A DNA stretch of 34,341 nt from Bacteroidaceae bacterium (lineage in GTDB: Bacteria > Bacteroidota > Bacteroidia > Bacteroidales > Bacteroidaceae), in contig JAFUHF010000062.1 in NCBI GenBank assembly GCA_017468985.1, positions 1 to 34,341 of the forward strand, written 5' to 3'. Shown here piece after piece: positions 3,981 through 34,341 of the stretch. Under the pieces are notes generated by a model that had not been told where the DNA came from, did no database searches, and saw nothing but the letters and a program-made list of their open reading frames with translations. The position numbers and the translations under genes were made by a program. The stretch's first letter is position 1; the number at the start of each line of letters is the position of its first letter.

Positions 3981-4289
3981 CACGTACCAGTTGGCATGCC
4001 CGCGATCGAATCATGGTTTTTACACGTGTTAATTGATATGTCCGTGGCCGAATCATGGTTTTTACACGTGCTAATTGGCATGTCCACGACCGAATCACGG
4101 TTTTTACACGTGCTAATTGGCATGTCCACGACCGAATCACGGTTTTTAAACGTGCTAATTGGCATGTCCGCGGCCGAATCACGGTTTTTACACGTGCTAA
4201 TTGGCATGTCCGCGGCCGAATCACGGTTTTTACACGTGTAAATTGGCATGTCCGCGACCGAATCATGATTTTTGCACGTGTAAATTGGG
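3981..4289. repeat. Tandem 42-bp repeat array 1 (about 7.3 copies)
   Basis: Units start at 3981, 4023, 4065, 4107, 4149, 4191 and 4233, each exactly 42 bp, with a partial eighth from 4275. Each unit holds CACGTG (or a variant), TAATTGGCATGTCC, a GC-rich variable tetramer, CCGAATCA and a T-rich end. Units 3 and 4 are identical and units 5 and 6 differ at one base, while the end copies are the most diverged, as expected for an array that expands from within. It lies between the minus-strand acyltransferase and plus-strand dsbD. No spacers separate the copies, so it is not a CRISPR array. All frames lack stops simply because 42 is divisible by 3. Confidence 0.95.
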
Positions 4290-4609
4290 GCTACGTGCCT
4301 CATATAATGACACACACATGTCATTCGCACTATATGTTTCTGACAGAATTTAAAACACACGCGAAATTTTATAGCAACATCCAAGATAAGTCCATGCAGG
4401 CCACATCATTAATCCCAACGGAAACACTGCAAGCTTATAGCCATTAGAATTTATACGTATGATTACTAACGACATAGGAGTAGATAATGCACTATTTTCA
4501 AACATTCCATACAGATGTTTTTCAGAAAACGGACCTTGATGCACTATCATTTTTTGAGAGATTGTAAGATTATTTAGAATTAAACGCCATTATAACTCTT
4601 ATTTATTTG
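4290..4609. other. Intergenic stretch without a recognisable gene
   Basis: This AT-rich stretch separates repeat array 1 from the dsbD promoter. It has only short frames in both directions, the longest a 66-codon minus-strand frame at 4350-4550 with no signal peptide, domain or family pattern. I see no RNA fold or mobile-element end that I can defend. Confidence 0.5.
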
Positions 4610-4617
4610 TATATTTG
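4610..4617 (+). promoter_or_regulatory. -7 promoter box for the dsbD unit
   Basis: TATATTTG matches TAnnTTTG and lies 37 nt before the dsbD ATG. A -33 element is not convincing. Confidence 0.55.
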
Positions 4618-4654
4618 CAGATGATTATCGTTTTTTAATTACATAAATCACTCA

Positions 4655-6664
4655 ATGATAAAGCATTTCTGCCACCTATTCAGTTTGTTTTTGGCCGTAA
4701 GCACAGCGGCCATAGCCCAAATGGAAGACCCCGTAAGGTTCGAAACAAAGGCCAATCGATTATCGAATGATCTTTTAGAACTTACATTCTCGGCCAAAGT
4801 GGATAAGGGATGGCATGTTTACGCCACCGATATTGGCAGTGGTGGACCAACAGAAGCTACATTTCATTTAGACTCTTCGAAAGGAGCCCAACCCGACGGA
4901 GCCCTCCAATCCATAGGCCAAGTAAAGGAAGAAGTTGACCCCATCTTCCAAATGCCTGTACGTTATTTTGAAGGACAGGCCACTTTCGTTCAGCGCATCA
5001 GGCTAACGCAGCCTGAATATGTCATTCAGGGATATTTGGAATACGGAGCCTGCAACGACCAGAACTGCCTTCCACCGACTCAAGTAGAATTCCAGTTTTC
5101 AGGTAAAGACGGGCCTCAGACAAGTGCCGAAGAGAAAGATGAAATCACCGACAAAAATTTTTCTGATTCAGAAATAAAAACCTTCGATTCCGATGAGGCA
5201 TCCGCCGTAAAGGCAGATAGAGCCAACTTCGAGGCCCAAATCTATGCACCAGTGATCGATCAGTTACAATCCCTGGGAGAGCAACAAGGTCGAAATCGTG
5301 GACTGATAACTATTTTCCTATTAGGTTTTGTTGGAGGACTCCTTGCGTTGCTCACTCCATGTGTATGGCCCATCATACCCATGACAGTGAGTTTCTTTCT
5401 CCATCGCTCATCTTCCCGAAGTCGTGCCTTGCGTGAAGCCTCCCTCTACGGACTGAGCATTGTGGTAATATACTTGCTATTGGGTCTGATCGTCACCCTC
5501 CTTTTTGGAGCAAGTGCACTGAATGCCTTGAGCACAAATGCCCTATTCAATTTGTTCTTCTTTGCACTCTTAGTATTGTTTGCCATCAGTTTCCTCGGTG
5601 GATTTGAGCTCACACTTCCCTCCTCTTGGAACAATAAGATCAATCAAAAGGCCGATTCCACCACCGGCCTGCTGAGCATATTCCTCATGGCATTCACCTT
5701 GGCTTTGGTTTCCTTCAGTTGCACTGGGCCAATCATCGGTTTCCTGTTAGTAGAAGTGTCTACAATGGGCAGCATTGTGGGACCAGCCATCGGCATGTTC
5801 GGATTTGCATTGGCTTTGGCCCTGCCCTTCAGTCTGTTTGCCCTTTTCCCGTCTTGGCTTAAGAAAATGCCCAAAAGCGGTGGATGGATGAACTGTGTAA
5901 AGGTCTCTTTGGGATTCATTGAACTGGCTTTCGCATTGAAATTCCTGAGCGTTGCTGATTTGGCCTACGGGTGGCACATTCTTGACCGCGAAACATTCCT
6001 ATCACTTTGGATTGCTCTGAGTCTGCTGCTTGGACTCTACTATTTAGGACTAATCCGCTTTGCCGGCGATGAGAAGAATGATCACCTGAGCATTCCACGC
6101 TGCTTCTTGGCCCTTTCTTCATTTGCTTTCGCCATTTATATGGTGCCCGGACTCTGGGGTGCGCCCCTCAAGGCCATCAGTGCCTTCTCGCCACCCTTGT
6201 CCACACAGGATTTCAATCTTTATAAGAACCATGTAGAGGCAGCATACAATGATTATGAAGAAGGGCTGCATGCGGCGCGAGCCACTGGCAAGCCTATGCT
6301 CATCGATTTCACCGGATTGGGATGCGTAAACTGCCGTAAGATGGAAAACAGTGTATGGACAGACGAACGAGTGCGACAACAACTCACTGACGACTTTATT
6401 CTGGTTTCCCTCTTTGTGGATGACAAAACCCCACTGCCCAGCCGTCTTGAGGTGGAAGAAAATGGCACCCAACGCATATTACGCACCATAGGTGACAAGT
6501 GGAGCTATCTGCAACGCCATAAGTTCGGCGCCAACACTCAGCCGTTCTACGTCATACTCAACGAAGAAGGCCAACCACTCAATCATTCCTATGCCTACGA
6601 TGAAAATGTAGACCACTTTCTTCTTTTCTTACAAAAAGGAAAGGAAAATCATCGTAAACACTAA
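4655..6664 (+). CDS. dsbD: Thiol:disulfide interchange protein DsbD
   Basis: The 669-residue membrane protein carries electrons from cytoplasmic thioredoxin to periplasmic thiol proteins. It shows all three DsbD parts: a signal peptide and N-terminal periplasmic immunoglobulin-like domain (about 25-165) with C133 and C138 in CNDQNC; a central domain of about eight membrane helices with C236 in LTPCVWPIIP and C356 in SCTGPIIG; and a C-terminal thioredoxin-like domain with C557-V-N-C560 in GLGCVNCRK. The two N-terminal cysteines are C-x4-C, slightly closer than in E. coli DsbD. A purine permease gene follows after 41 bp on the same strand. Likely partners are thioredoxin-fold lipoproteins such as the one at 24606, though that link is inference. 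Confidence 0.93.
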   Translation: MIKHFCHLFSLFLAVSTAAIAQMEDPVRFETKANRLSNDLLELTFSAKVDKGWHVYATDIGSGGPTEATFHLDSSKGAQPDGALQSIGQVKEEVDPIFQMPVRYFEGQATFVQRIRLTQPEYVIQGYLEYGACNDQNCLPPTQVEFQFSGKDGPQTSAEEKDEITDKNFSDSEIKTFDSDEASAVKADRANFEAQIYAPVIDQLQSLGEQQGRNRGLITIFLLGFVGGLLALLTPCVWPIIPMTVSFFLHRSSSRSRALREASLYGLSIVVIYLLLGLIVTLLFGASALNALSTNALFNLFFFALLVLFAISFLGGFELTLPSSWNNKINQKADSTTGLLSIFLMAFTLALVSFSCTGPIIGFLLVEVSTMGSIVGPAIGMFGFALALALPFSLFALFPSWLKKMPKSGGWMNCVKVSLGFIELAFALKFLSVADLAYGWHILDRETFLSLWIALSLLLGLYYLGLIRFAGDEKNDHLSIPRCFLALSSFAFAIYMVPGLWGAPLKAISAFSPPLSTQDFNLYKNHVEAAYNDYEEGLHAARATGKPMLIDFTGLGCVNCRKMENSVWTDERVRQQLTDDFILVSLFVDDKTPLPSRLEVEENGTQRILRTIGDKWSYLQRHKFGANTQPFYVILNEEGQPLNHSYAYDENVDHFLLFLQKGKENHRKH

Positions 6665-6705
6665 TTATGAAACAGAATCATTAACTCAATACACTCAAAC
6701 CAACT

Positions 6706-8019
6706 ATGACATCATTATTAAAAATCTTGGGATTCAATCCAGAGCAGCATTCCACTAAGACTGAAATCTTGGCAGGACTGACAACATTCTTAACGATGAG
6801 TTACATCCTGGCAGTCAACCCTCTCATTTTGGGGGACGCCGGAATGGACAAAGGAGCCGTGTTCTCCGCAACGGTAATTGCGGCCGCAACTGCCACATTA
6901 GTGATGGCCATCTATGCCAAGCTTCCATTTGCCTTGGCTTCAGGCATGGGCCTCAATGCGTTTTTCACCTACACGCTGGTTATTGTCACTGGATTTACCT
7001 GGCAGCAAGCATTGACAGCCGTATTCGTTGAAGGCATAGTATTTATTCTGCTCACCATCTTCAAGGTACGCGAAGCCATCGTTAATGCCATTCCTGTCAA
7101 CTTGCGTTATGCCATTTCCGTAGGTATCGGCCTTTTCATTGCCTACATTGGTTTGAAGAACGGCGGAATTATTGTGAGCAGTGACGCTACCATCACAACG
7201 TTAGGCCCATGGACAGCCACTTCCCTCATTGCCATCGCCGGCATCCTGATCGGAGCCGTATTGTTAGCACTAAACGTAAAAGGTGCCTTGTTCTTCACCA
7301 TCATTGCCATGACCATCATTGGCATTCCCTTTGGCGTGACGAAGATACCTGAGGGCTTCACACTCATTAGTCTGCCTTCATCGCTGGAACCCGTGGCTTT
7401 CAAACTTGACTTCTCCCGATTTATCTCATTAGATATTAATTATTTAGTTGTCGTATTTACATTGCTTTTCATGGACTTGTTTGATACGTTGGGTACCCTC
7501 ATCGGAGCTTCTACCGGAGCCAATATGGTTGACGAGGATGGTCGCGTACCCCGTCTCAACAAGGCATTGATGGCTGATGCCGTAGGTACCACCGTAGGTG
7601 CACTTTGCGGCACATCTACCGTTACTACTTATGTGGAAAGCACGGCTGGAATTGCTGCCGGCGGTCGCACGGGACTCACCTCCTTTACGGTAGCCATCCT
7701 TTTCCTCGTGGCCTTATTCTTCTCACCGCTATTTCTGATGATCCCATCCGCTGCCACAACGAGTGCATTAGTGTTAGTGGGCGTCATGATGATTAAGCCT
7801 ATTGTTAAGCTCAATCTTACCGACTTTGCAGAAGCAGTTCCTGCCTTTATCACCATCGTAATGATGCCCTTCACTGCCAGCATCTCTGAGGGTATCGTTT
7901 TGGGAATGCTCTCATTAGTGGTGATCAAACTATGTAGTGGCCGCGGACGTGAACTCTCCATTGTGATGTACATTCTGGCTGTATTCTTCATCCTGAAGTA
8001 TGTTGCTCCGATGCTTTAA
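6706..8019 (+). CDS. NCS2 family purine permease (AzgA/PbuG-like)
   Basis: The 437-residue inner-membrane protein begins LGFNPEQHSTKTEILAGLTTFLTMSYIL and contains LASGMGLNAFF, FMDLFDTLGTLIGAS and GTSTVTTYVESTAGIAAGGRTGL. These blocks are characteristic of the AzgA subgroup of nucleobase:cation symporters, which import hypoxanthine, guanine or adenine. About 12-14 hydrophobic segments cover the chain, and the length is normal for the group. It sits between dsbD (41 bp upstream) and the DUF5020 outer-membrane protein gene (30 bp downstream), which fits a purine uptake pair across both membranes. The exact base transported cannot be decided from sequence. Confidence 0.92.
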   Translation: MTSLLKILGFNPEQHSTKTEILAGLTTFLTMSYILAVNPLILGDAGMDKGAVFSATVIAAATATLVMAIYAKLPFALASGMGLNAFFTYTLVIVTGFTWQQALTAVFVEGIVFILLTIFKVREAIVNAIPVNLRYAISVGIGLFIAYIGLKNGGIIVSSDATITTLGPWTATSLIAIAGILIGAVLLALNVKGALFFTIIAMTIIGIPFGVTKIPEGFTLISLPSSLEPVAFKLDFSRFISLDINYLVVVFTLLFMDLFDTLGTLIGASTGANMVDEDGRVPRLNKALMADAVGTTVGALCGTSTVTTYVESTAGIAAGGRTGLTSFTVAILFLVALFFSPLFLMIPSAATTSALVLVGVMMIKPIVKLNLTDFAEAVPAFITIVMMPFTASISEGIVLGMLSLVVIKLCSGRGRELSIVMYILAVFFILKYVAPML

Positions 8020-8049
8020 ACTCAAACACAATCATCAATACATTTCATT

Positions 8050-8784
8050 ATGAAAAAACTCTTTTTCTTTGCAGCATTGCTGCTCACTGGCATGAGTGCC
8101 TATGCACAAAACGTGCAGTTACACTACGACATGGGGCATTCCATCTATGACGATTTGGGTGGACGCCCCAACGTTACCAGTACCGTGGAGATGTTTAAGC
8201 CCGACAAGTGGGGTAGCACCTTCATGTTCACCGATATTGATTATTTCAGTGACGGTTCAGCAGGTGCTTACTGGGAAATCTATCGCGAGTTTAATCTCAC
8301 GAAGAACAAGCAATGGGCTTTCCACATGGAGTATAACGGTGGGTCTACTTCTATTGAACACACGGCCATTGCCAGTCGTTTCCAGCATGCGTTCCTCGCT
8401 GGTGGTGCATGGAATTGGGTAAGCCAGGACTTCAGCCGCAATTTCTCCTTTCAAGCCATGTACAAATATTACTTCAAAGGTATGGGAAGCGGCGCATTCA
8501 ATGGCTTCCAGACCACGGCAGTCTGGGGACTCAACTTCGCTGGTGGTCTTTGCACCTTCTCAGGCTTTGCTGACCTTTGGTATAATCCAAATGTAAATGG
8601 TAAACTCATCTTCTTGAGCGAACCACAGTTCTGGGTGAACTTCAACAAGCTTCGCGGCATGGACGGTGTAAACGTTAGTGTTGGAACCGAGGTAGAATTG
8701 AGCAACAACTTTGTATTTAATAACGTAGGCATTAACAATTCCTTCTACGCCATCCCCACATTGGCCGTTAAGTGGACATTCTAA
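8050..8784 (+). CDS. DUF5020 family outer-membrane protein, Tsx-like channel candidate
   Basis: The 244-residue product has a clear Sec signal (MKKLFFFAALLLTGMSAYA-Q) followed by alternating aromatic beta-strands and a C-terminal strand ending in a phenylalanine (LAVKWTF), as expected for an outer-membrane beta-barrel. The pattern (YDMGHSIYDD, SDGSAGAYWEIYREFNL, WGLNFAGGLCTFSGFADLWYN) matches my recollection of DUF5020, a family related to the nucleoside channel Tsx. Its position right after a purine permease supports a role in letting nucleosides or nucleobases through the outer membrane; this is inference. It is the last gene before a strong terminator. Confidence 0.72.
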   Translation: MKKLFFFAALLLTGMSAYAQNVQLHYDMGHSIYDDLGGRPNVTSTVEMFKPDKWGSTFMFTDIDYFSDGSAGAYWEIYREFNLTKNKQWAFHMEYNGGSTSIEHTAIASRFQHAFLAGGAWNWVSQDFSRNFSFQAMYKYYFKGMGSGAFNGFQTTAVWGLNFAGGLCTFSGFADLWYNPNVNGKLIFLSEPQFWVNFNKLRGMDGVNVSVGTEVELSNNFVFNNVGINNSFYAIPTLAVKWTF

Positions 8785-8819
8785 GCCTATAGATACATTT
8801 CCTAAGCTTCATAATCAAG

Positions 8820-8860
8820 GTGTAGGTCGGGCATAAAGCCCAAACCTACACTTTATTTAT
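8820..8860 (+). terminator. Intrinsic terminator of the dsbD-permease-DUF5020 unit
   Basis: The stem pairs GTGTAGGT (8820-8827) with ACCTACAC (8844-8851) and GGGC (8829-8832) with GCCC (8838-8841), with a small internal bulge and an ATAAA loop. A T-rich tail (TTTATTTAT) follows. It lies 35 bp after the DUF5020 stop. Confidence 0.85.
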
Positions 8861-8968
8861 ATTGTATTTTCCATCCACATCTGCTCTTGAGGTCACTTTT
8901 CCTTTAAAAAGCAGGGCGACCAAACGAAAAAGACGTCGCTAAAATAGTCGAAACTCCAATAAAATGCG

Positions 8969-8976
8969 TACTTTTG
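8969..8976 (+). promoter_or_regulatory. -7 promoter box overlapping the start of argB
   Basis: TACTTTTG matches TAnnTTTG and ends only 5 nt before the ATG at 8982. Transcription would start at or within a few bases of the start codon, so the transcript may be leaderless. Confidence 0.55.
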
Positions 8977-8981
8977 CGGAA

Positions 8982-9758
8982 ATGGATAAAAAACTTACCG
9001 TAATCAAAGTAGGTGGCAAAATCGTTGAAGAAAAAGAATCCCTTAACGCACTGCTTCAGGAATTCGCCACCATCAAGGGGCCAAAAATACTGGTTCACGG
9101 AGGCGGACGCACCGCCACTGCCTTAGCATCGCAGTTGGGCATTGAAACAAAAATGGTAAATGGCCGGCGCATTACCGATGCCGATATGTTGAAAGTTGTC
9201 ACCATGGTCTATGGCGGACTTGTCAATAAGCAAATCGTAGCTCATCTCAATGCTCTCGGCATATGCGCTCTGGGACTTACAGGGGCCGATATGGACATCA
9301 TTCGTTCCCATCGTCGCGAAAAGGGCGAAGTGGACTATGGATTCGTAGGTGATGTAGATTATGCTAACGGAGGTTTGCTTTCCTTGTTGCTTCAACAGCA
9401 CATAGTGCCCGTTATGGCACCCCTCACCCACGACGGCTCCGGGCAAATACTCAATACAAACGCTGATACCATTGCTGCAGAAGTTTCTAAGGCCTTGGCT
9501 TCCTTTTATGAAGTCACCTTAGTTTATTGCTTCGAGAAAAAAGGCGTTTTGCGCCATCCAGATGACGATGACAGCGTCATTCCTCACATCACCGCTTCCT
9601 CATACGCCCGTTTGAAGGATGAAGGAGTCATCCAAGACGGCATGATTCCCAAACTTGACAACAGTTTCGCCGCACTTCAGGCCGGAGTAAGCAAAGTGGT
9701 AATTACTCGTGTAGGACAGATAGGAAATCCCCAACTTGGAACTACAATTGAATTATAA
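8982..9758 (+). CDS. argB: Acetylglutamate kinase
   Basis: The 258-residue product phosphorylates N-acetylglutamate, the second step of arginine synthesis. It shows the amino-acid-kinase pattern: KVGGKI at the N-terminus, HGGGRTATAL for acetylglutamate binding, MVNGRRITD, GLTGADMDII, GFVGDVDYANGGLL and LNTNADTIAAEVSKAL near the end. Length is normal. An in-frame ATG at 8964 would add six residues but overlaps the -7 box at 8969-8976, so MDKKLTVIKVGG at 8982 is chosen. No other arginine genes are beside it. It is followed after 21 bp by the alkaline phosphatase gene, and the two may be cotranscribed. Confidence 0.92.
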   Translation: MDKKLTVIKVGGKIVEEKESLNALLQEFATIKGPKILVHGGGRTATALASQLGIETKMVNGRRITDADMLKVVTMVYGGLVNKQIVAHLNALGICALGLTGADMDIIRSHRREKGEVDYGFVGDVDYANGGLLSLLLQQHIVPVMAPLTHDGSGQILNTNADTIAAEVSKALASFYEVTLVYCFEKKGVLRHPDDDDSVIPHITASSYARLKDEGVIQDGMIPKLDNSFAALQAGVSKVVITRVGQIGNPQLGTTIEL

Positions 9759-9779
9759 ATCATTAGTATAAAGATAACA

Positions 9780-11435
9780 ATGAAGAAATTATTGCTCTTG
9801 ATGATAGCCATTTGCTTGGTTTCATCAACGCGTGGGGCCGTTGACCCCCAAAAAGTGAAACCGGTAAAGAATGTTATCCTCATGGTAACTGACGGAACGT
9901 CTATCAGTGCCGTATCATTGGCCCGATGGCTGCAGTATTACCAAAACCCCGACATGCCGAACCTCAATCTTGACCCCTATCTGTGTGGAACGGTGCGCAC
10001 TTCGTGCTCCGATGCTCCCATTGGCGATTCAGCACCCACTACTTCTTGCTATGTTACGGGCCACATGAGTCGTTGCAGTTATGTTGCCACATTCCCACCC
10101 GACAGAGGCAAAGACAACATTGACATTATTGACGGTAGTAAGGCTTATGGCCCTATGGCTACTCTGCTTGAGGCCGGCAAACAGCTACAGGGGAAATCAG
10201 CCGGCATGGTTTTCACCTGTCAGTTCCCCCACGCCACTCCGGCCGACTGTTCTTCTCATTATTATAACCGCAGCGCCTATGACATCCTTTCGGAACAGCA
10301 GGTTCACAATGGTTTAGACGTTGTCATCGGCGGTGGAAACAATTATCTCAATCAGGAACAGGAAGAATACCTCAAGAATCACGGCTATTCTGTCTTCAGG
10401 AATGATAAAAAGGGAATGGAGACCTGCACCAACAACAAGATGTGGGCTCTTTATGGCGGCGTAGACATGGAATACGACATTGATCGCAATCCAGACCAGC
10501 AACCATCATTGGCTGAAATGGCCAAGATCGCTCTCGACAAATTATCGAAAAACAAGAAAGGCTTTTTCCTGCTTATCGAAGGCAGTAAGGTTGACTATGC
10601 TGCCCATTCTAACGATGCAGCCGCAATTGGTCCAGAGTTTTTGGCCTTCGACCAGGCTTTCGGTGTGGCACTCGAATTTGCCAAGAAGGACAAAAACACT
10701 GTCATCGTAGTGGTTCCCGACCATGGTAATAGCGGTTTGAGTATCGGTTGTTCACGCTGCGGCGATTACTCTCACCGTTCCAAAGACAACCTTTTTGGTC
10801 AGCTCTCTAAGTACAAGCGTTCTGCCGGCGTGCTTACCAATCTCGTAAAAGAGCAGCCTTACGAAAAGCTGCAAGACGTGCTTACCCAGTATGAAGGACT
10901 CGAACTCACTGCAGACGACGTGGATCGAATCGTTCACGCCAAGGATTATGACAACAGCCCCATCCCTAAGGATGCCCGAAAAGGCGGAAGCCTCTACAGC
11001 ATCTTGAAAGATATCTTGACGCTGCACACTTGCTTGGGTTGGACCACGGGTGGACACACCGGAGAAGAAGTTTTCCTGGCTTGCTACAATCCTCACGACA
11101 TCCGGCCGCTCGGAATGTCTACCAATGTAGAGTTGGGTAACTATCTGTTAGCCTGCTTCGGACTTTATGGCAAGATGGATCAGTTTACGGACAAGATTTT
11201 TACACACCATGACGTAGCTTTTAAGGGCATGGATTGGTCTATCGAAAAACCCGAGAAAGGTTTCCCCGTACTCACGGTGAAAAATCCTTCCAATGGCAAG
11301 ACCATGACCATCCGGGCGCATGGAAACCTGGCTAAGGTAGACGGTAAGGAGATCGAGATTGCTTCCGTCATGCCTTACGTTGACCGTACGGACAAATTCT
11401 ATGTGCCAAACGACATGGCCAAATACCTGAAATAG
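9780..11435 (+). CDS. Alkaline phosphatase (PhoA family), periplasmic
   Basis: The 551-residue product has a signal peptide (MKKLLLLMIAICLVSSTRG) and the PhoA-type metal and active-site blocks: NVILMVTDGTS (metal Asp), IGDSAPTTS with nucleophile S84, GSKVDYAAHSNDA (metal Asp and His), VVPDHGNSGLSIG and TTGGHTGEEV (metal His). It hydrolyses phosphate monoesters in the periplasm. The active-site run DSAPTTS departs from the usual DSAASAT-like form after the Ser, and the chain is longer than the roughly 450-residue enterobacterial enzyme, with extra sequence between the VVPDHG and TTGGHTG blocks. The neighbouring glutaminase gene begins 41 bp after its stop. No Pho box can be identified. Confidence 0.9.
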   Translation: MKKLLLLMIAICLVSSTRGAVDPQKVKPVKNVILMVTDGTSISAVSLARWLQYYQNPDMPNLNLDPYLCGTVRTSCSDAPIGDSAPTTSCYVTGHMSRCSYVATFPPDRGKDNIDIIDGSKAYGPMATLLEAGKQLQGKSAGMVFTCQFPHATPADCSSHYYNRSAYDILSEQQVHNGLDVVIGGGNNYLNQEQEEYLKNHGYSVFRNDKKGMETCTNNKMWALYGGVDMEYDIDRNPDQQPSLAEMAKIALDKLSKNKKGFFLLIEGSKVDYAAHSNDAAAIGPEFLAFDQAFGVALEFAKKDKNTVIVVVPDHGNSGLSIGCSRCGDYSHRSKDNLFGQLSKYKRSAGVLTNLVKEQPYEKLQDVLTQYEGLELTADDVDRIVHAKDYDNSPIPKDARKGGSLYSILKDILTLHTCLGWTTGGHTGEEVFLACYNPHDIRPLGMSTNVELGNYLLACFGLYGKMDQFTDKIFTHHDVAFKGMDWSIEKPEKGFPVLTVKNPSNGKTMTIRAHGNLAKVDGKEIEIASVMPYVDRTDKFYVPNDMAKYLK

Positions 11436-16034: not shown

Positions 16035-16041
16035 ACGCTCC

Positions 16042-17388
16042 ATGAGTCTCAAAAACAAGATAAACCACTCCAACCCATTTCTTTTATGGCGAATAAGAGA
16101 AATGGGTTTTGCTTTGCTTCTTCTGGCAGGGTCGTCAGCATGCAGCAAGCATCATGACGAGCTGGCGGATGTCCCTGCCGAGCGCACGGTGATCCTCTAC
16201 TTCTCTGCCGAAAACAGCATAGCCACTTTTGGCAACACCGATGTCAACGAAATCAAGCAAGGCGCCAGTTATTTGAAGGAAGGGCAAAAGATGGTGCTCT
16301 TTTTTGACTACGGAGGCACCTCCAGCATCTACCTGTTCGACCGCCATACCCCTTCTTCGGCCTCCCCGGCCTACACCTTCGCCACCAATCAGGACGCTTC
16401 CGACCCCCATACGCTCCTGACCGTGCTCAATTGGGCAAAAGTGCATGCACCTGCCATGGAATACGGCATGGTATTCTGGAGTCACGCTGACGGCTGGCTG
16501 CTTCCCTTCAATACGGACTATGAGGCTTCCACACCATCCTCGTCAGCACAGTCTAAAGCCCTGAACGGCCCCTCACGAAAGGCGCAATCGTTCGGAATCG
16601 ACGACGGTTACCCTCGCCGTTTCCCCACTGACATGGGAACCAACATGAGTATCCCCGACCTGGCTGCTGCATTGCAAAACAGCGGTCTGAACTTCCGCTA
16701 CGTCTACTTCGATGCCTGCTCCATGCAGGGATTGGAGGTAGCCTACGACCTGCGCCATGCCACAGACTACGTTATAGCCTCCCCCATGAGCACGCCGGCC
16801 GATGGAGCCTACTATATTGATCAAATTCAGAAGGGGCTCTTTTCTGCCGATCCAGCCGACATCGCCAGAACCTACATGGACGATGTCAAGAGCAAAACCG
16901 GAAATACTTACGGTACGTATGGGCAAGGCGCAGTGATAGCCGCCCTTAAGACAGAGCTCTTAGACTCCCTGGCGCACATAACGGCCCTTATGCTCAAGCG
17001 CAATGGCGTAGGGGCAAACTATGAGTATCCCACGATGGACGGGGTGCAGGCCTACTGCGCTTATTCGCCCCAAATCTTCTATCGCCCGGACTATTTCGAC
17101 GCCGCTCAAGCCATGCGCAAACTGCTCAGCCCAGCCGATGCCGAAGCCTGGTGCCAGTTGTTCGATCAAATCGTGGTCTACAAGGAAGGAACCTCCTACT
17201 TCTATGCCTTTGCACCCTACAATTCCGGTTATTTCAGCTTACAAGAAGGCTATTCGGGCGTCAACCTGTTTGTGCCGCAAAAGAAATATACCGATTATGC
17301 CAACCTTTGCCTTTACGGCGACTTAAACGAAGCCTTCAGGTGCACTTCCTGGTACAAAGCTGCCGGATGGCAAGATCTGGGCTTCTGA
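16042..17388 (+). CDS. Clostripain-family (C11) cysteine peptidase, lipoprotein
   Basis: The 448-residue product shows the C11 catalytic pair: H148 in FWSHADGWL and C226 in YFDACSMQGLEVAYDL, within a caspase-like fold beginning ERTVILYFSAENS. These enzymes cut after basic residues and usually self-process. The N-terminus has a lipobox (LLAGSSAC), so it is probably membrane-anchored. The ATG at 16042 follows the barrel gene stop by 7 bp but leaves a long 24-residue leader before the hydrophobic core; an internal ATG at 16102 (MGFALLLLAGSSAC) would give a more normal lipoprotein signal. Both are possible. Its position with a barrel and a cysteine-rich secreted protein suggests cell-surface proteolysis or maturation, which is inference. 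Confidence 0.85.
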   Translation: MSLKNKINHSNPFLLWRIREMGFALLLLAGSSACSKHHDELADVPAERTVILYFSAENSIATFGNTDVNEIKQGASYLKEGQKMVLFFDYGGTSSIYLFDRHTPSSASPAYTFATNQDASDPHTLLTVLNWAKVHAPAMEYGMVFWSHADGWLLPFNTDYEASTPSSSAQSKALNGPSRKAQSFGIDDGYPRRFPTDMGTNMSIPDLAAALQNSGLNFRYVYFDACSMQGLEVAYDLRHATDYVIASPMSTPADGAYYIDQIQKGLFSADPADIARTYMDDVKSKTGNTYGTYGQGAVIAALKTELLDSLAHITALMLKRNGVGANYEYPTMDGVQAYCAYSPQIFYRPDYFDAAQAMRKLLSPADAEAWCQLFDQIVVYKEGTSYFYAFAPYNSGYFSLQEGYSGVNLFVPQKKYTDYANLCLYGDLNEAFRCTSWYKAAGWQDLGF

Positions 17389-17424: not shown

Positions 17425-17639
17425 TCCCAAAAACGCCTTCATTCTGCCTAATCGCATCACCTCAGGCCCGAATAACGCCTCCATTCTGCCTAATCGCATC
17501 TCCTCAGGCCCGAATAACGCCTTCATTCTGCCCAATCGCATCACCTCTGACCCGAATAACGCCTCCATTCTACCTAATCGCATCTCCTCAGGCCCGAATA
17601 ACGCCTCCATTCTGCCCAATCGCATCTCCTCAGGCCCAC
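17425..17639. repeat. Tandem 42-bp repeat array 2 (about 5 copies)
   Basis: Units start at 17440, 17482, 17524, 17566 and 17608, all 42 bp, with a degenerate half-copy before the first. Each contains CATTCTGCC, TAATCGCATCTCC (or CAATCGCATC), GGCCCGAATAACGCC and a variable C/T. It lies between two convergent genes, the C11 protease (plus) and the OmpA lipoprotein (minus). Copies differ at a few sites (C/T at unit position 10, A/T at 20). No spacers are present. The remaining bases up to 17684 hold nothing recognisable. Confidence 0.95.
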
Positions 17640-17748: not shown

Positions 17749-18651
17749 TTATTCTTCTACAGCATCCGTTTCGGGAGCTTTATCAATCAAATCCATGAAT
17801 TGATCGAGTTTCGGGGTGATAATGATCTGCGTGCGGCGGTTGCGCTGCTTGCCCAGTTCCGTGTCGTTATCCGCAATGGGATTATATTCGCCACGACCGG
17901 CTGCAGAGAGTCGACGGGGATCAACTCCATAGTCATTCTGCAACGATTGCACCACCGAGGAGGCACGCAGACAGCTCAAATCCCAATTGTTCCTGATATT
18001 GGTTCGGCTGATAGGCACAGGATCAGTGTTTCCTTCCACCAGCACGTCGTAGTCCTTGTAATCCTTTATGATTTTAGCAATCTTACTCAGCGTTTCGCCG
18101 GCACGACTGTTAATTTCGTAACTGCCCGACTTGTAGAGCATGTTATCAGCCAAGGAGATGTATACCACTCCCTTGAGCACCTTGATATCCACCTCTTGCA
18201 GCTCATCGCGACTCAGGCTACGCGTCAAATTGTTCGTGAGAACCATATTCAGTGAGTCACTTTTCGACTTTGCGTCCACCAGTTGCTTTATGAAGCGGTT
18301 GGAAGCGTTAATCTCGTCAACGAGCTTCGAAATGTTCACTCCTCCCTGCGCATTCTGGCGCAAACTCTGATCAAGCGATCCCTGTAACTTCTCAAAATCG
18401 GCCCGGAGGTCCTTCACACGTTGCTGTTCGCTTGCCGTGCGCTGTTGTTCAAGGCTAACGCGCTCCTGTAGGTTCTTTGTGTTCACATTACACTCTGCCA
18501 AGTCTACACGAGTGTCCTCATAGAGCTGTTTGAGCTTGGCGTTCTCTGTTTGCAATGCCTGAAGCTGTTTTTTGCTGGCGCAACTGCCCATTAACATCGT
18601 AATGAGCGTTGCAAATAATAAAATCTGATGTTTCTTCATATTCTTCTTCAT
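17749..18651 (-). CDS. OmpA-family lipoprotein with coiled coil
   Basis: The 300-residue product starts MKKNMKKHQILLFATLITMLMGSC, a lipoprotein signal; frames upstream to 18705 add a charged leader and are unlikely. After the lipidated Cys comes a coiled coil of about 80 residues (KQLQALQTENAKLKQLYEDT, LQERVSLEQQRTASEQQRV), then a C-terminal OmpA peptidoglycan-binding domain (about 170-285) with DVLVEGNTDPVPI, NNWDLSCLRASSVVQSL and LGKQRNRRTQIII. Such proteins tie the outer membrane to the cell wall. The TDPVPI and NWDLSxxRA forms resemble the MotB/Pal-like subgroup of Bacteroidota. A near-consensus TAAATTGC lies upstream, so the promoter is uncertain. Confidence 0.87.
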   Translation of the reverse strand: MKKNMKKHQILLFATLITMLMGSCASKKQLQALQTENAKLKQLYEDTRVDLAECNVNTKNLQERVSLEQQRTASEQQRVKDLRADFEKLQGSLDQSLRQNAQGGVNISKLVDEINASNRFIKQLVDAKSKSDSLNMVLTNNLTRSLSRDELQEVDIKVLKGVVYISLADNMLYKSGSYEINSRAGETLSKIAKIIKDYKDYDVLVEGNTDPVPISRTNIRNNWDLSCLRASSVVQSLQNDYGVDPRRLSAAGRGEYNPIADNDTELGKQRNRRTQIIITPKLDQFMDLIDKAPETDAVEE

Positions 18652-18760
18652 TTTTTTACCCCTAACGAGAGGCTCTATGATAATTTCGAGGCGCAATTTA
18701 CGCATTTTGGTACTACTGCTGGATGGTTTACATCAAAAAACGGTCACTCTTCAACTTGTT

Positions 18761-27356: not shown

Positions 27357-29969
27357 ATGGCAGAAGATACACTAACCCCCATGATGGCCCAGTTTCGGAG
27401 TTTGAAGGCGAAACATCCCGATGCCATCTTGCTATTTCGCTGTGGCGACTTCTACGAGACCTATCAAGAAGACGCTGTTCTGGCTTCCTCCATTCTCGGC
27501 ATCACGCTCACCCATCGTTCTGCCAAAGGCAAAGGAGCCGCTACGGAAATGGCAGGTTTTCCTTACCATGCCTTAGACAGCTATTTGCCCAAACTCATCC
27601 GCGCAGGCCATCGCGTAGCCATCTGTGACCAGTTGGAAGACCCGAAACTCACTCGCAAGCTCGTCAAGCGCGGCATTACGGAGCTGGTTACGCCGGGCGT
27701 TGCCCTGACGGAGGGAATTCTAAGCAATAAAGAGAACAACTTCCTCGCGGCAGTGTATATCAGCAGGAGTATCTGTGGTCTGTCACTGTTAGACATCACA
27801 ACCGGAGAGTTTGCCGTGGCCGAAGGCACCGTAGATTACATCGGGAAACTGCTGATGAACCTTTCACCCAAAGAGGTACTTATCCTGCGCGGCACAAAAG
27901 AACGCTTTACCCGTACCTTTACGGGAACACAATGCTTCACCTTCGAACTGGACGAATGGATATGGGCTGAAAAGACGGCCATTGAGCGCCTGTGCCGCCA
28001 TTTTGGTGTAAAAAACCTGAAAGGTTACGGTGTGGCCCACATGACGGCGGCCCTTTCGTGTGCAGGAGCCATTCTCTACTATTTGGATGACACACAACAC
28101 ACGCACACCGGCCATATCACCTCCCTGCGTCGCATAGAAGAAGACCGCTATATGAGAATCGACGGCTTTACCATGCGGAATCTGGAGATCTTGGCCCCCA
28201 TGAACGAAGGCGGAAGGAGTTTGCTCCAAGTGATGGACAAGACACTTACCCCTATGGGAGCGCGCATGCTTCGTCGTTGGCTCAGCTTTCCCCTGTGCAG
28301 CGTGCAGGACATTGAGCATAGGCATAACTGCGTAGAGTATGTGCTGAACGACACATCGCTTCGCGAGTTGCTTCATGAGAAGATGAGCCAAATAGGAGAC
28401 ATGGAGCGCCTCATCTCCAAGCTGGCGGCCCTGCGCATCAATCCACGGGAGATGCAGCAGCTGCGCTACGACTTAGAAGCCATTCTGCCACTCCGCGAAG
28501 CCTGCTTGCAGGCTGATTTGGCCTCGCTTCGCGACTGGGGCAGCCGCATGGACGCCTGCACGGAACTGAAAGACAAGATTGCACAGACCCTAAGCCCCGA
28601 GCCCCCAGCACTCATGAGCAAGGGAGGATATATCGAGACCTGCATTTCGGCAGAACTCGACGAATTGCGCTCCATTTCGCAAAACGGACGCGCCTATCTG
28701 ATGGAATTGCAACAGCGCGAAGCTGAACGTACGGGCATCCAAAGCTTGAAAATTGGGTACAACAGTGTTTTCGGATATTATCTTGAAGTGCGCAACACGT
28801 TTAAAGACCACGTTCCCCCGGAGTGGATAAGAAAACAAACGCTCGTTGGAGCCGAACGCTATATCACAGACGAACTGAAAACCTACGAAGAGAAGATTCT
28901 CGGGGCCGAAGACAAAATACTGGCCCTTGAAGCGCAAATTTTCCAGCAGCTCATGTCCGAAGCATCGCAATACATCAGCCGAATGCAGGCCGACGCCGCT
29001 GCCGTAGCCACGCTGGACTGTTTCTATTCGATGGCCACGCTGGCCGAAGAACGCCACTACGTAAGACCCATCGTAGACGAGGGAACCACCTTGGAGATTG
29101 CCGAAGGACGCCACCCCGTGATAGAAACCCAAATGAACGTAGGCGAAACATACGTACCCAACGATGTAAGACTCGATACAGAAGAGCAGCAGATTGTGAT
29201 TATCACGGGTCCCAACATGTCGGGTAAGTCGGCGTTGTTGCGCCAAACGGCTCTCATAGTACTTATGGCCCAAACGGGCAGTTTCGTTCCAGCCAGCAAG
29301 GCTCGTATTGGTTGGGTGGACAGGATATTCACACGTGTAGGAGCCAGCGACAACATCTCGGCAGGCGAATCCACCTTTATGGTAGAGATGAGCGAGGCAG
29401 CTTCCATCATGAACGGCTTCACAAACCGTAGCCTTGTGCTTTTTGACGAGTTAGGCAGAGGCACGTCAACCTATGATGGCATATCCATCGCATGGGCCAT
29501 CGTGGAGTATCTGCACGAAAACCCCAAAGGCAAACCCAGAACGCTCTTTGCCACGCATTATCATGAGCTCAACGAGATGGAAAAAACCTTTCCTCGCATT
29601 CATAACTACAATGTTGCCGTAAAAGAGGTAGGCAGTGAGGTGGTTTTCCTTAGAAAGCTGGTTCCCGGCGGCAGTGCCCACTCGTTTGGCATCCATGTAG
29701 CCCAGATGGCCGGTATGCCTCCCAGTATTGTAAAGCGCGCCGGCGTAATTCTGGGAGAACTGGAGTCTACCAGCGACGGCGGAAAGGTATCGAAGCCCAC
29801 CGTAGAGATCGGGCAGAGCCGTGAAGGAATGCAACTGAGCTTTTTCCAGCTTGACGACCCCGTTTTGCGGCAAGTTCGCGACCGCCTGGTCCATCTTGAC
29901 ATCAACGGACTCACGCCCCTTGAGGCACTCAACATACTCAACGAGATTCAAAAGCTCGTTCGCAACTAA
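27357..29969 (+). CDS. mutS: DNA mismatch repair protein MutS
   Basis: The 870-residue ATPase recognises mismatches and starts repair. The N-terminal domain has the mismatch-wedging F-Y-E in [10 protein letters not shown]; later come the connector, clamp and lever domains, and the ATPase has Walker [16 protein letters not shown] (about 616-630), Walker [17 protein letters not shown] and the HYHEL element of FATHYHEL. Full length and intact, ending EIQKLVRN. The cysteine in FRCGDFYE replaces the Met or Val more often seen and does not touch the key Phe and Glu. The GH127 gene follows 14 bp after its stop. Confidence 0.96.
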
Positions 29970-29983
29970 CCAAACCCTCCTCT

Positions 29984-31906
29984 ATGTTTTATTCATTTTT
30001 TTCGCTTATGCACCTCTCCGTTTTCCCCCTTCTGCACCGAACCTTAAAGCTCCACGCATTTCTCCTTCTGTTTTCATTTCCTCTTTTGCTCTTTGCAGCT
30101 AAGGATAAGAACGCCGCACCCCATATTGATCAAGTCCGACTCACGGGTTATGTGGGTGAGCGCATCGACGGATGCATACAGCAGAGAGTGATGACTCAGG
30201 ATGTAGACGAAATCGTCAGTCCGTTCCGCCATCAGGATGAAGTTCACAACCTTTGGGGTACGGAGTTCTGGGGCAAGTGGGTGCAAGGCGCCATGTCGGC
30301 CTATCGCTACAATCACGACCCTGCCCTCTATGAAAAAATCAGGCAGTCCGTAGAGCTCATGCTCGCCACCCAGCTGCCAGACGGCTACATAGGCAACTAT
30401 GACAAGGACCATCAGCTACAAGGATGGGATGTATGGGGTCGAAAGTATACTTTGCTTGGTCTGATTAAGTGGTACGACCTCTCCTCCGACAAACGCGTGC
30501 TCAAGGCAGCCCGTCGCCTCTTGGACTACACCATTAGCCAGTTTGGTCCCGACAAGAAACACGTGTGGGAAGCCGGCCTCTACAGGGGAATGCCTCCGAT
30601 GTCCATACTGGAGCCCGTTATGCTGCTCTATCATCGCACCAGGGAGAAGGCTTACCTGGATTTCGCCCAATATATCGTAAACGACGGGGAACAAACGGGC
30701 GGTCCCAAGCTCTTGGCTAAAGCGGACGTGCCGGTAGCCCTGCGTTTCCCCATTGAAAACCCCAAACAATGGTGGACTCACGCCAATGGACAGAAAGCTT
30801 ACGAAATGATGTCGTGCTACGTGGGTCTTCTCGAGCTCATGAAGGTAACGGGAAACGCTGATTACCTCCAAATCGCCGAGCGCGTTTATCATCACATCTT
30901 GAACGAGGAAATCAACATCTGCGGATCGGGCAGTGCCTATGAGTGCTGGTACGGAGGCCGGCAGAAGCAGACGCGTCCCAGCAGCCACAGCATGGAAACC
31001 TGCGTTACTTTTACCTGGATGCAGTTCAACGAGCGCCTCTGGCAGCTCACGTCGCGCTCCCTCTACATCGATCAGATTGAACGCACCATGTACAACGCCC
31101 TGATGGCCTCCATGCGAGGCGACAACGGGCAGATTGCCAAATATATTCCACTGGAGGGTTATCGCCATGAGGGCGAGAATCAGTGTAACCTCCACATCAA
31201 TTGCTGCAATGCCAACGGGCCGCGCGCTTTTGCCATGATTCCCAGAGTCACTTACGCTGTCCATGACCCAGAAACCATAGACGTCAATCTCTATATTCCC
31301 TCTCAGGCCGACATTACCATTGGGAAGACGAAGGTTCATCTCCAGCAAATCACCGACTATCCTGCCTCCGACGATATAGAACTGCGCGTTACGCCCTCTT
31401 CGCCCACTGCCTTCGCCCTCAGGCTCCGTATTCCTGCCTGGAGCTCCTCCACTCAGGTCACGATCAATGGTCAATCCGTCAGTGAGGTCCATCCAGGGAA
31501 CTATCTCACCCTGCAACGCACCTGGGCATCGGGCGATGTCGTGAAAATCCGTTTCGACATGACGGCTCACCTTTCTGAACTCAACCATTATCAGGCCGTT
31601 CAGCGCGGTCCCATCATCTTGGCACGCGACAGTCGTTTTCAAGATGGCTTTGTAGACGAGCCCTGCATCATTCCCCATCAGGGAAATGCCGTTACGCTCA
31701 CCTCCGTTGAGGCTCCGCAAGGCATCTGGATGGCTTTCGAAACACGTATGCCCACGGGCACCTATGCCAACGGCGAAGCCGAATACTCTACGGTTCGTTT
31801 CTGCGACTTTGCTTCGGCTGGCAATACCTGGAACCGCAGCGAGCGCTACCGCGTCTGGCTGCCCAAGACCCTTGATGCACAAAATGAATTCAACAATCAC
31901 GATTAA
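29984..31906 (+). CDS. GH127-type beta-L-arabinofuranosidase (DUF1680)
   Basis: The 640-residue product has a signal-like N-terminus (LLLFSFPLLLFA) and an (alpha/alpha)6-barrel hydrolase pattern with DEVHNLWGTEFWGKWV, ATQLPDGYIGNY and WDVWGRKYTLLGL. The GH127 metal and nucleophile set is present: E338 and C340 in SMETCVTF and the pair C407-C408 in INCCNANGPR; a Glu in AYECWYGG is a candidate acid/base. The family removes beta-L-arabinofuranose from plant glycans and glycoproteins, though related GH families share the fold. The first ATG gives a long leader; an in-frame ATG at 30008 (MHLSVFPLLHR) is an alternative. Its stop is only 5 bp from the metallophosphoesterase gene. A plant cell-wall substrate is inference. 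Confidence 0.87.
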   Translation: MFYSFFSLMHLSVFPLLHRTLKLHAFLLLFSFPLLLFAAKDKNAAPHIDQVRLTGYVGERIDGCIQQRVMTQDVDEIVSPFRHQDEVHNLWGTEFWGKWVQGAMSAYRYNHDPALYEKIRQSVELMLATQLPDGYIGNYDKDHQLQGWDVWGRKYTLLGLIKWYDLSSDKRVLKAARRLLDYTISQFGPDKKHVWEAGLYRGMPPMSILEPVMLLYHRTREKAYLDFAQYIVNDGEQTGGPKLLAKADVPVALRFPIENPKQWWTHANGQKAYEMMSCYVGLLELMKVTGNADYLQIAERVYHHILNEEINICGSGSAYECWYGGRQKQTRPSSHSMETCVTFTWMQFNERLWQLTSRSLYIDQIERTMYNALMASMRGDNGQIAKYIPLEGYRHEGENQCNLHINCCNANGPRAFAMIPRVTYAVHDPETIDVNLYIPSQADITIGKTKVHLQQITDYPASDDIELRVTPSSPTAFALRLRIPAWSSSTQVTINGQSVSEVHPGNYLTLQRTWASGDVVKIRFDMTAHLSELNHYQAVQRGPIILARDSRFQDGFVDEPCIIPHQGNAVTLTSVEAPQGIWMAFETRMPTGTYANGEAEYSTVRFCDFASAGNTWNRSERYRVWLPKTLDAQNEFNNHD

Positions 31907-31911
31907 CACCT

Positions 31912-33018
31912 ATGAAACAACGTTCATTCCTTCTTCTCTGCGCTTCTTTCCTGTGCCTCATGGCCTCTGCGCAGCACCGTGCTGACCGTCAACAGCTTTC
32001 CGACCCCAATTCTTTCATGTTTGTGGTCTTTGGTGACCCTCAGGGCTACACAAAATACGACATCAATCAGCCGCTCTATGAGCTCTCCACCGTCTGGATC
32101 TCCGACAATGTGGAACACCTCAACATCAAGGCCGTACTCTTCACCGGCGACCTCGTGGAGCAGAACGAGAACATCGTGCGCAACCGCTCCATGCTCAATC
32201 AGACCAGCAAGCAGATGTGGGAATGGTCCAGCCATTGCCTTGAGCGCTTAGATGGACGCGTACCTTACATCATTGCCGGCGGCAATCATGAGTATGGCTA
32301 CGTACGTGGTGACGAAAGTTTCACGCACTATCCCGAGTATTACACCTTTGAGCGCAACCCTAAGAATGCCGACCACCTCGTAGCCGCTTTTCCCAACCGC
32401 ATGGGACAAGTGTCACTTGAGAATGCGGCCTGGGAGTTCCAGGAAGAGCATTGGGGCAAGCTGCTTGTCATCGGAACCGAATGGGCTCCGCGCGACGAAG
32501 TATTAGAATGGGCCAAAAAGCTTTGCGACAGTCCTAAGTATCAAGACCATAAGGTGATTTTCCTCACCCATTCCCTCCTGCGCGAAAAAACCGCGAAGTA
32601 TACCGACAACGAAAACTACAAGATCAGCCCTCGCAATTGGGGTCAGCAGATCTGGGACAAACTGCTCTATCCCTGCAAGAACATCCGTCTCGCCGTATGC
32701 GGCCACACCGGCCATCCTGCTTCTGACGACGGTCTGCAAACCGGCAGTCGCGACGACTTTGAACTCAATACGGCCTACCGTTGCGATAAAAACGCCGCTG
32801 GAAAAGACGTTCATCAGATGATGTTCAACATACAATGCCTTGGCGGCGGCTGGGAAGGCAATGGCGGCGACGGTTGGCTGCGCCTGCTGGAGTTCATGCC
32901 CGATGGAAAAACCATTAAGGCCACCACCTACTCCGTTCTTTTTGGCATTTCGCCCATGACCAAACACCTGGCTCACCAAACCGACCCTTGCTGTCAGTTC
33001 GAGATGGTGATTGATTAA
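31912..33018 (+). CDS. Secreted calcineurin-like metallophosphoesterase
   Basis: The 368-residue product has a signal peptide (LLLCASFLCLMASA-Q) and the metallophosphoesterase metal ladder: FGDPQGY (first Asp), FTGDLVEQN (second Asp), IIAGGNHEYGY (Asn-His), FLTHSLL (His) and AVCGHTGHPA (two His). Phosphodiesters, phosphomonoesters or nucleotides are possible substrates. It is separated from the GH127 gene by 5 bp, so they are probably one transcript; the first motif has GDPQ rather than the commoner GDxH, a variant seen in other members. A C-terminal region of about 100 residues follows the metal-binding fold (LGGGWEGNGGDGWLRLLEF). Confidence 0.88.
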   Translation: MKQRSFLLLCASFLCLMASAQHRADRQQLSDPNSFMFVVFGDPQGYTKYDINQPLYELSTVWISDNVEHLNIKAVLFTGDLVEQNENIVRNRSMLNQTSKQMWEWSSHCLERLDGRVPYIIAGGNHEYGYVRGDESFTHYPEYYTFERNPKNADHLVAAFPNRMGQVSLENAAWEFQEEHWGKLLVIGTEWAPRDEVLEWAKKLCDSPKYQDHKVIFLTHSLLREKTAKYTDNENYKISPRNWGQQIWDKLLYPCKNIRLAVCGHTGHPASDDGLQTGSRDDFELNTAYRCDKNAAGKDVHQMMFNIQCLGGGWEGNGGDGWLRLLEFMPDGKTIKATTYSVLFGISPMTKHLAHQTDPCCQFEMVID

Positions 33019-33114
33019 GCCTTTTGGCACGAATTGCCACAAGGTTGCCGCTGTTGAACTCAGGAATAGTCATGATTCACTATTTCCTTTGCACCTCATT
33101 CTTATTTTCATCTC

Positions 33115-33302
33115 ATGACAACGGCACAAATCATCCAGCAACAAGAAGACCGGCGCGAGATTCGCAAGCTGGTCGACGCTTACGCTTACTGCACCGACCG
33201 GCGAAACTGCGAGGGGCAAATGTCACTCTTTACGAATGACACTCGCTTTGTGGTCTATATGAACAGTCACGCCGCCCAGTCCTCCTATGCCCTCAACGGC
33301 AA
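33115..33302 (+). pseudogene. Truncated NTF2/SnoaL-like gene (5' part only)
   Basis: Residues 1-62 read MTTAQIIQQQEDRREIRKLV, then DAYAYCTDRRNCEGQMSLFT and VVYMNSHAA, the standard opening of SnoaL/NTF2-like proteins, usually about 130-160 residues long. After ...SYALNGK, at about 33300, the similarity stops: the frame continues to 33453 with unrelated sequence that is the reverse complement of a minus-strand gene. The fold's remaining strands are missing, so the product is almost certainly non-functional. A weak -7-like TTCCTTTG lies upstream at 33084-33091. Confidence 0.65.
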
Positions 33303-34045
33303 GAAAAACCTGCTGCTCCTTTCTTACGCGGTTGGCATAGTCTGTGGCACTCCTGCCACCCCAGATTTTATGAATCTGGTAACCCTCAGCAGCATAGGGA
33401 ACCAGTTTTTCCAGCAGTTCGTCCTGCGAATCAAAGGTAATCAGCACCACTGATTCGGATTGCGGCGTAGTCATCTTGTTGAAACATACCGAATAGCACG
33501 TGTGCTTGAAATAGTTGTCATACTTCGCAGCCACGCTCCCCACGGTCCATCCCTGCTCCATCTCCGCATTGATGCCATTGAGCAGTAGATCTTCTTCCTG
33601 GAAATCAATAGCCTTCTGCAACGCAATGTCCGTCCGGTTGTTCTGCAGCAGCATGGAGTAAGTGGCCACCATCAGACCGTAACCCTTATGGCCCTTCAGT
33701 TGTTTTGAAGCATATCCAAACGATTGCAGGGTGCCGTTTCCCGTCTTGTCAAATATTGTAAAGTCCTCTTTTTCTTCATAATAAACAATGTTATATCACA
33801 GTTTCATCAGTTGCTTGCAGCGCTTCTTCTTTGGCCCGGACGCCGGAAGGTACTGCAGTTCCTCACACCGCTGGCTGAAGCCTTCCGTATTGGGATGAAG
33901 CACGATGAGTATCCCAAACTTCGTGCATGTGATGGATTCCACGTATCGCCCACTCTGCATGAGCGCGTTCACCGTTTCTGCCTTCAGGGAAAAGTCTTCT
34001 GGCGGAGAATCTTTTGAGGTCTCGACCTTTTTTTCAAAAGATTTT
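33303..34045 (-). pseudogene. Broken minus-strand gene of unknown family with in-frame stop
   Basis: One minus-strand frame runs from about 34045 to 33303 and is interrupted by a single TGA (33798-33796). On both sides it reads like protein: before it, ETVNALMQSGRYVESITC and GILIVLHPNTEGF; after it, YNIVYYEEKEDFTIFD, NAEMEQGWTVGSVAAKYDN and VPYAAEGYQIHKIWGG. The repeated pattern of a helix, GY/GW, then a beta strand resembles the repeats of DUF7477-like proteins, but I cannot confirm this. Its start is lost where the frame enters the 42-bp array, and its end is lost at the junction near 33300 with the truncated NTF2-like gene. It is best seen as a relic. Confidence 0.55.
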
Positions 34046-34058
34046 CCAGGAAAATTCC

Positions 34059-34341
34059 TTGATGCAACCCTCGTAACGCACTTTTGTCCGAACAAATTTC
34101 TTGATGCAACCCTCGTAATGCACTTTTGTCCGAACAAATTTCTTGATGCAACCCTCGTAACGCACTTTTGCTCGAACAAATTTCTTGATGCAACCCTCGT
34201 AACGCACTTTTGTTCGAACAAATTTCTTGATGCAACCCTCGTAATGCACTTTTGCTCGAACAAATTTCTTGATGCAACCCTCGTAACGCACTTTTGCTCG
34301 AACAAATTTCTTGATGCAACCCTCGTAACGCACTTTTGCTC
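34059..34341. repeat. Tandem 42-bp repeat array 3 (more than 6.7 copies, cut by window end)
   Basis: Units of exactly 42 bp start at 34059, 34101, 34143, 34185, 34227, 34269 and 34311. Each has TTGATGCAACCCTCGTAA, CGCACTTTTG, a variable dinucleotide, CGAACAAATTTC. Copies differ at only two spots: C/T in TAACGCA or TAATGCA, and TC/CT/TT before CGAA. The second spot lies inside the near-palindrome TTTGTTCGAACAAA on the other strand. A degenerate half-copy precedes the first unit. The array continues past the window. Confidence 0.95.

Follow-up and report, generated by a model that had tools for sequence, protein, structure and literature searches.

The 34,341-nucleotide stretch analyzed here (hereafter, the window) corresponds to contig C61 in the draft genome of a Bacteroidaceae bacterium (2.17 Mb in 87 contigs; completeness 78.65%) and contains three tandem arrays of 42-bp units, all on the plus strand and all with 0% indels as delineated by Tandem Repeats Finder (TRF). 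Array 1 (family A; 3980..4288; 7.4 copies, 89% match; consensus ACACGTGCTAATTGGCATGTCCGCGACCGAATCACGGTTTTT) is located between two divergent genes, an open reading frame (ORF) on the minus strand (2660-3964), for which no NCBIfam match was found, and a gene for a DsbD-like protein on the plus strand (4655-6664). Array 2 (family F; 17432..17637; 4.9 copies, 90% match; consensus AACGCCTCCATTCTGCCTAATCGCATCTCCTCAGGCCCGAAT) separates a convergent pair that consists of an ORF on the plus strand (16042-17388) and an OmpA-family gene on the minus strand (17749-18705). Array 3 (family C; 34052..34341; 6.9 copies, 96% match; consensus AAATTTCTTGATGCAACCCTCGTAACGCACTTTTGCTCGAAC) is truncated by the contig end. 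The three arrays had been reported in a first-pass annotation of this DNA and are real, with TRF limits within 7 bases of the coordinates reported there. Units of about this length recur across the genome in families that are mostly dissimilar in sequence.

Among the 29 arrays detected by TRF in 40 stretches of the same genome (691,061 bases; counted after merging, with a minimum of 2.5 copies), 25 have a period of 40-43 bp: 40 bp in 3 arrays, 41 bp in 1, 42 bp in 14 and 43 bp in 7, with the periods of 7, 12, 15 and 18 bp represented once each. Because 27 of the 40 stretches were picked from contigs with a known array match, the density of arrays in this sample might be inflated; in the other 13 stretches (172,654 bases), 4 of the 5 arrays have periods of 40-43 bp, as do 12 of the 14 arrays in the first 20 stretches. 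Two of the 43-bp rows adjoin in locus L047 and may represent a single array. BLAST searches of this genome yielded 16 matches for array 1 (E<=0.001), 7 matches over 6 loci for array 3 (E<0.002) and 6 matches over 4 loci for array 2. After the removal of repeated entries, the sampled arrays and the loci found with BLAST make up 44 rows, about 42 of them distinct; rows a03 and a08, at two contig ends, share 57 identical flank bases and are alike at 253 of 271 bases, so that they could be one locus. Units of 43 bp are found in 11 of the 44 rows, in families B and D. The near-constant period thus extends over seven sequence clusters and is a larger, genome-wide property than the first-pass annotation stated; the broad genome-wide spread of periods that it had named as contrary evidence did not occur. 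In contigs C13, C14, C17, C24, C29, C51, C58, C60 and C82, and in the window, a contig end lies within, or no more than 60 bases from, a 42- or 43-bp array or match. Draft contigs so often end in these arrays that the arrays probably break assemblies, and the true number of arrays is accordingly uncertain.

The units that share this period do not form a single recognizable sequence family. The 28 units compared (25 from the sampled arrays and 3 from the window) fall into 7 clusters, and in a survey of 74 between-family pairs, with the four known subfamily pairs (C-C2, F-F2, H-H2 and A-B) left out, 5 pairs reach p<=0.05 where 3.7 are expected, that is, near chance. The first-pass annotation had assigned all three window arrays to one divergent family with the skeleton TAA...CCGAA, and the spacings between these two motifs are indeed 18, 19 and 14 in arrays 1, 2 and 3, respectively. 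For arrays 1 and 2, this proposal is weakly supported: their alignment scores exceed those of shuffled sequences (p 0.013, 0.02 and 0.015 in separate tests; 0.003 with dinucleotide shuffles), the weak match coincides with the skeleton (CTAATTGGCATGTCC...CCGAAT against CTAATCGCATCTCC...CCGAAT), and single linkage places both arrays in one cluster of 9 units. Array 3 does not align with array 1 (p 0.99) or array 2 (p 0.82) better than shuffled sequence, and p exceeds 0.99 in the dinucleotide test; inspection by eye indicates that the CCGAA motif was read selectively, given that TCCGAAC is present in 2 of the 6 complete units and CTCGAAC or TTCGAAC in the remaining 4. Array 3 is related to another array in the genome, C2 (p 0.0002), which in turn is related to family A in a different register (p 0.001), so that, to judge from these alignments, array 3 may be weakly and only distantly tied to array 1 through an intermediate. 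The wider search thus yields many arrays with periods close to 42 bp but no skeleton common to the clusters, and a single family that includes array 3 reduces to the weak chain A-C2-C.

The arrays are dispersed and almost always intergenic: 24 of the 25 sampled arrays are outside genes called with a simple longest-ORF rule. Of the 16 arrays with both neighbors, 7 lie between convergent, 6 between tandem and 3 between divergent genes, compared with 27, 90 and 46, respectively, among 163 background spacers; the excess of convergent neighbors (7/16 against 27/163, p 0.015) fits tolerance of the arrays where promoters are absent. In family A, the left end is in a fixed register (12 arrays, R 0.87; 10 arrays, R 0.84 and p 0.0004 without two copies that share a leader), and array 1 starts in this same register, whereas the right end is random (13 arrays, p 0.65, with a possibly doubled locus entered twice). 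A flank of about 85-107 bp is common to 3 of the 15 family A rows and is found nowhere else in the genome; the remaining flanks mostly lack any common sequence. The right end of family C is CTTTTGAA in 3 of the 5 loci that have a right end (L032, L035 and L036), which, by eye only, could be either a terminator-like hairpin or the end of an element. In L033, the family C right end is TTTTTGAAAAA, and in both L033 and L035, it is followed by TTTCAAAAG. Terminal inverted repeats occur at chance level, with 1 of the 27 arrays that have both flanks at p<=0.05.

The families appear to be private to this species. Array 1 has no BLAST matches in 18 congeners or in plasmids, and for array 2, a search of 60 other genomes of the phylum yielded only one 21-bp exact match (E 8e-4, in genome G050) that was taken as chance. 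In congeners, the spacers orthologous to those of array 1 (five) and array 2 (four) contain no array; these spacers are too diverged for alignment, and two of them hold just two-copy repeats of 9 and 14 bp. The period itself is rare among relatives as well. The sample of the 18 congeners (1,192,946 bases) contains 117 arrays, 34 with periods of 20-24 bp, 52 with 7-8 bp and only 4 with 40-43 bp (Fisher p 5e-20 for 25/29 against 4/117, with the reservation that recurrent families make the arrays non-independent); in three congeners, with small samples, no array was found. Congener G002 (L069-L078) carries 52 tandem arrays over 173 kb, with a period of 7-8 bp in 35 and of 20-24 bp in 11, and in G012 an 85-bp unit, about twice 42.5, is repeated 4.3 times at 98% match (L068:15942-16305). 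Three of the four congener arrays of 40-43 bp come from G017, where they are all of the sampled arrays and have 43-bp units, and one comes from G015. One of the G017 arrays has 29 matches within G017 and none in the 18 other genomes of the genus; a second one matches itself alone. Among 62 arrays from 80 named loci (1,439,193 bases; almost all loci carry a Bacteroidales label, and some are close to identical with one another), 29 have periods of 20-23 bp (5 of these inside called genes), 16 of 7 bp, 3 of 66 bp and none of 40-43 bp. The 14 arrays from 12 other genomes of the class (324 kb, one locus masked) include 6 with a period of 7 bp, 2 with 23 bp and none with 20-22 or 40-43 bp.

For the OmpA-family protein of the window, G017 is the best congener match (86%); for the DsbD-like protein, it is not (62%, against 64% for G010). 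Among the 80 retained of 91 matches of the latter protein, from which entries of this or near-identical genomes were possibly excluded, the named ones belong to Bacteroidaceae and other Bacteroidales, with a top identity of 67%. The window also encodes a PorE-family protein and a tRNA on the minus strand (942-1015), which is all that the Rfam scan of the window detected at gathering scores.

Several simple accounts of the unit can be set aside. Palindromic or hairpin units are not the rule in this genome (1 of the 25 sampled units at p<0.05 against shuffles, Fisher 0.54; none of the three in the window), although hairpins do occur in the arrays of relatives, where they exceed shuffles in 2 of the 3 G017 units (Fisher 0.0035), 5 of the 34 congener units of 20-24 bp (0.03) and 6 of the 29 units of 20-23 bp from named loci (0.0035). 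Two of the named Bacteroidales arrays (L105:9767-9851 and L107:20770-20853) consist of 22-bp units that are mostly hairpin (inverted-repeat p 0.005 and 0.035) and are in this respect unlike the 42-bp units. A dimer of 21-bp halves is not apparent (lag-21 z -1.1 for the 7 cluster representatives); the three 43-bp units of G017 combine hairpins with a weak 21-bp sub-period (lag-21 z 2.6), neither of which is seen in the units described here. Phased curvature was likewise rejected because the 10.5-bp harmonic is missing (z 0.6 at k=4 in no more than 7 units); at k=3, the 14-bp harmonic, these units have a z of 2.7, uncorrected for 12 tests. The arrays are not clustered regularly interspaced short palindromic repeats (CRISPR) either: the repeats are contiguous, without unique spacers, and unit divergence along the arrays reveals no CRISPR-like polar growth.

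Minisatellites that change by unequal exchange or slippage across whole units acquire higher-order periods and more divergent edge units. Periods that span two to four units do occur in the arrays, and in family A, the edge units diverge by 0.20 and 0.21, compared with 0.10-0.17 for most inner units, so that both features fit this process. Within the TRF-called limits, 38 of the 41 indels are 1 bp long, and the ratio of indels to substitutions is 0.062, compared with 0.069 in the 20-24-bp arrays of congeners, 0.121 in those of named loci and 0.163 in G017; because the ratio in this genome is close to that of the congeners, length constraint is neither demonstrated nor excluded. Two-copy duplications have a length of 21 bp in 13 of 40 cases in congeners, with 2 of 40 at 22 bp and none at 23-35 bp; in named loci, 8 of 39 are 21 bp long, 5 are 22 bp and 8 are 15 bp. 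These counts pool coding and non-coding repeats, the former favoring multiples of three. The 21-bp peak in congeners is the best hint that the length is set at birth.

The explanation that we consider best, and to which we would assign an even chance, is that the arrays are species-private, dispersed intergenic minisatellites whose unit length is determined by a sequence-independent duplication step inherited within the lineage rather than by a bound sequence. Under this scheme, arrays would arise or be seeded at intergenic sites by a route of dispersal that in family A leaves one end in a fixed register; the units of an array would then be homogenized through whole-unit slippage or unequal exchange; and the duplication step would yield units of about 42 bp, perhaps corresponding to four helical turns, in this genome, 43 bp in the sampled arrays of G017 and, in other relatives, commonly a length near two turns (20-24 bp) or else 7-8 bp. 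No cellular function is required. A broader generalization can be offered only tentatively, namely, that Bacteroidales possess a ruler that fixes the length of tandem duplications, at 21-22 bp, or about two helical turns, in many species and at 42-43 bp, or four turns, in no fewer than two congeners, and that is inherited but switchable, such that unrelated families share one length. A number of observations count against the preferred explanation or its generalization. The start register is weak in family C (p 0.04; end, p 0.10) and not significant in family D (p 0.19, one locus entered twice), and edge divergence is weak in the former and absent in the latter. The G017 evidence consists of three sampled arrays, one of them without another copy and one not searched. 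In this genome, two-copy duplications show no peak at 42 bp (3 of 13 at 40-42 bp, 2 of 13 at 21 bp), and duplications of 21-22 bp account for 3 of 10 in other Bacteroidia as well. Neither 40 nor 43 bp is an exact multiple of 10.5, and a period of 31-32 bp, the equivalent of three turns, is nearly absent. Finally, some families do show traces of kinship that could mean that the period was kept by descent: the run TTTACACGTGCTAATTGG, an 18-bp core seen by eye, is common to families A and B (pair p 0.049 with B scored as a single copy, which understates a core that wraps around the unit); A-C2, C-C2 and A-F (p 0.003) are weakly linked, the three pairs having been chosen after the 74-pair survey; and 7 of 39 pairs between this genome and G017 reach p<=0.05 where 2.0 are expected.

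These same similarities are the main argument for a single old 42-bp family that diversified by substitution and partial replacement of units as it spread, with the period inherited and drifting by single bases to 40-43 bp, in agreement with the predominance of 1-bp indels. Such descent is possible but on the whole doubtful, considering that the families of this genome resemble one another hardly more than by chance and that the 21-bp peak of two-copy duplications in congeners is not readily produced by descent from old arrays. Composition may contribute to the similarity with G017 because G017 units, 2 of the 3 pairs of which are similar to each other at p<=0.05, also exceed chance against the 22-bp arrays of named loci (10 of 87 pairs, 4.4 expected); units of this genome do not (14 of 377, 18.9 expected), and their similarity to the 21-bp arrays of congeners is 27 of 442 pairs against 22.1 expected. 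The first-pass annotation had read the constant length as selection on the period or on a bound protein, and nucleoid or regulatory proteins that bind one helix face every four turns would account for the tight clustering of periods around 42 (4 x 10.5) and for the lowest indel ratio of the four sets. Such binding sites nevertheless appear improbable: periods of 40 to 43 bp coexist, the clusters share no motif, no 10.5- or 21-bp sub-period was seen in the 7 cluster representatives, the indel ratio hardly differs from that of the 21-bp arrays of congeners, and the orthologous spacers of congeners (five for array 1, four for array 2) do without an array, so that the claim of selection is not borne out. 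Coding repeats of 14 codons per unit, suggested by the divisibility of 42 by three and by some frames that remain open, are extremely improbable and already contradicted by the 43-bp units and by the location of nearly all sampled arrays outside called genes. It is rather unlikely, although overlapping with the preferred explanation, that the arrays are elements akin to miniature inverted-repeat transposable elements (MITEs) that carry a minisatellite, the type of element proposed for BrickBuilt and MITE464/PgRS of Porphyromonas gingivalis. Their dispersed, intergenic and species-private distribution, the flank shared by three family A loci, the fixed start register and the possible common right end of family C, seen by eye, all point in this direction, whereas the chance level of terminal inverted repeats and the lack of common sequence in most flanks point away from it; the former is not decisive because, among the copies of a comparable element, BrickBuilt, both inverted ends are reported in just 4 of 19 (PMC4596501). 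The likelihoods given to all these readings overlap and are not mutually exclusive.

Should the length stay constant while sequence families turn over, repeat content and repeat length, two properties that are usually confounded, would be separable in the evolution of tandem repeats. A ruler of this kind, should one exist, would be part of replication, repair or chromosome packing; a natural comparison of its 21-bp and 42-bp settings would then be available within Bacteroidales.

Among known systems, REP/BIME (repetitive extragenic palindromic sequences and bacterial interspersed mosaic elements) resemble the 42-bp arrays in their many dispersed intergenic copies; they consist of palindromic units and are associated with a Y1 transposase. 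The units of this genome are non-palindromic, and the Y1 transposase domain (PF01797), present in 4 of 19 genomes of the genus, was not found in this 78.65% complete one. The intergenic heptamer repeats of many prokaryotes have, according to their published descriptions, one preferred period and an unsettled function (PMC6344855, PMC4679880). They are comparable in location and in the constancy of the period, and arrays of 7-8 bp are abundant in some of the congeners, but the units described here are six times longer and show no lag-7 signal. The closest parallels come from the same order and are compared by description. BrickBuilt, known from Porphyromonas gingivalis and P. gulae, is a 23-nt minisatellite within a MITE that is described as lacking spacers, varying in copy number and being present in 19 dispersed intergenic copies in one P. 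gingivalis strain, with, at some of the loci, leader and tail segments that end in IS5-like 12-bp inverted repeats (PMC4596501). The arrays in this genome are likewise tandem without spacers, variable in copy number, dispersed and intergenic, with possible flanking segments at some loci only, but differ in the 40-43-bp unit, in that no inverted ends were found, and in the presence of several clusters on one period. MITE464/PgRS of P. gingivalis, described in the same source, consists of 41-nt tandem repeats at about 10-20 copies per genome (PMC4596501); its period falls within the 40-43-bp range, but, unlike the 42-bp arrays, it carries GAGACTGTTGCA-type ends. No description of a period common to unrelated minisatellite families in Bacteroidales was found among titles and abstracts, with subscription papers mostly outside this search. 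The arrays thus resemble the known minisatellites of P. gingivalis, with one further regularity: dissimilar families of one genome share one period.

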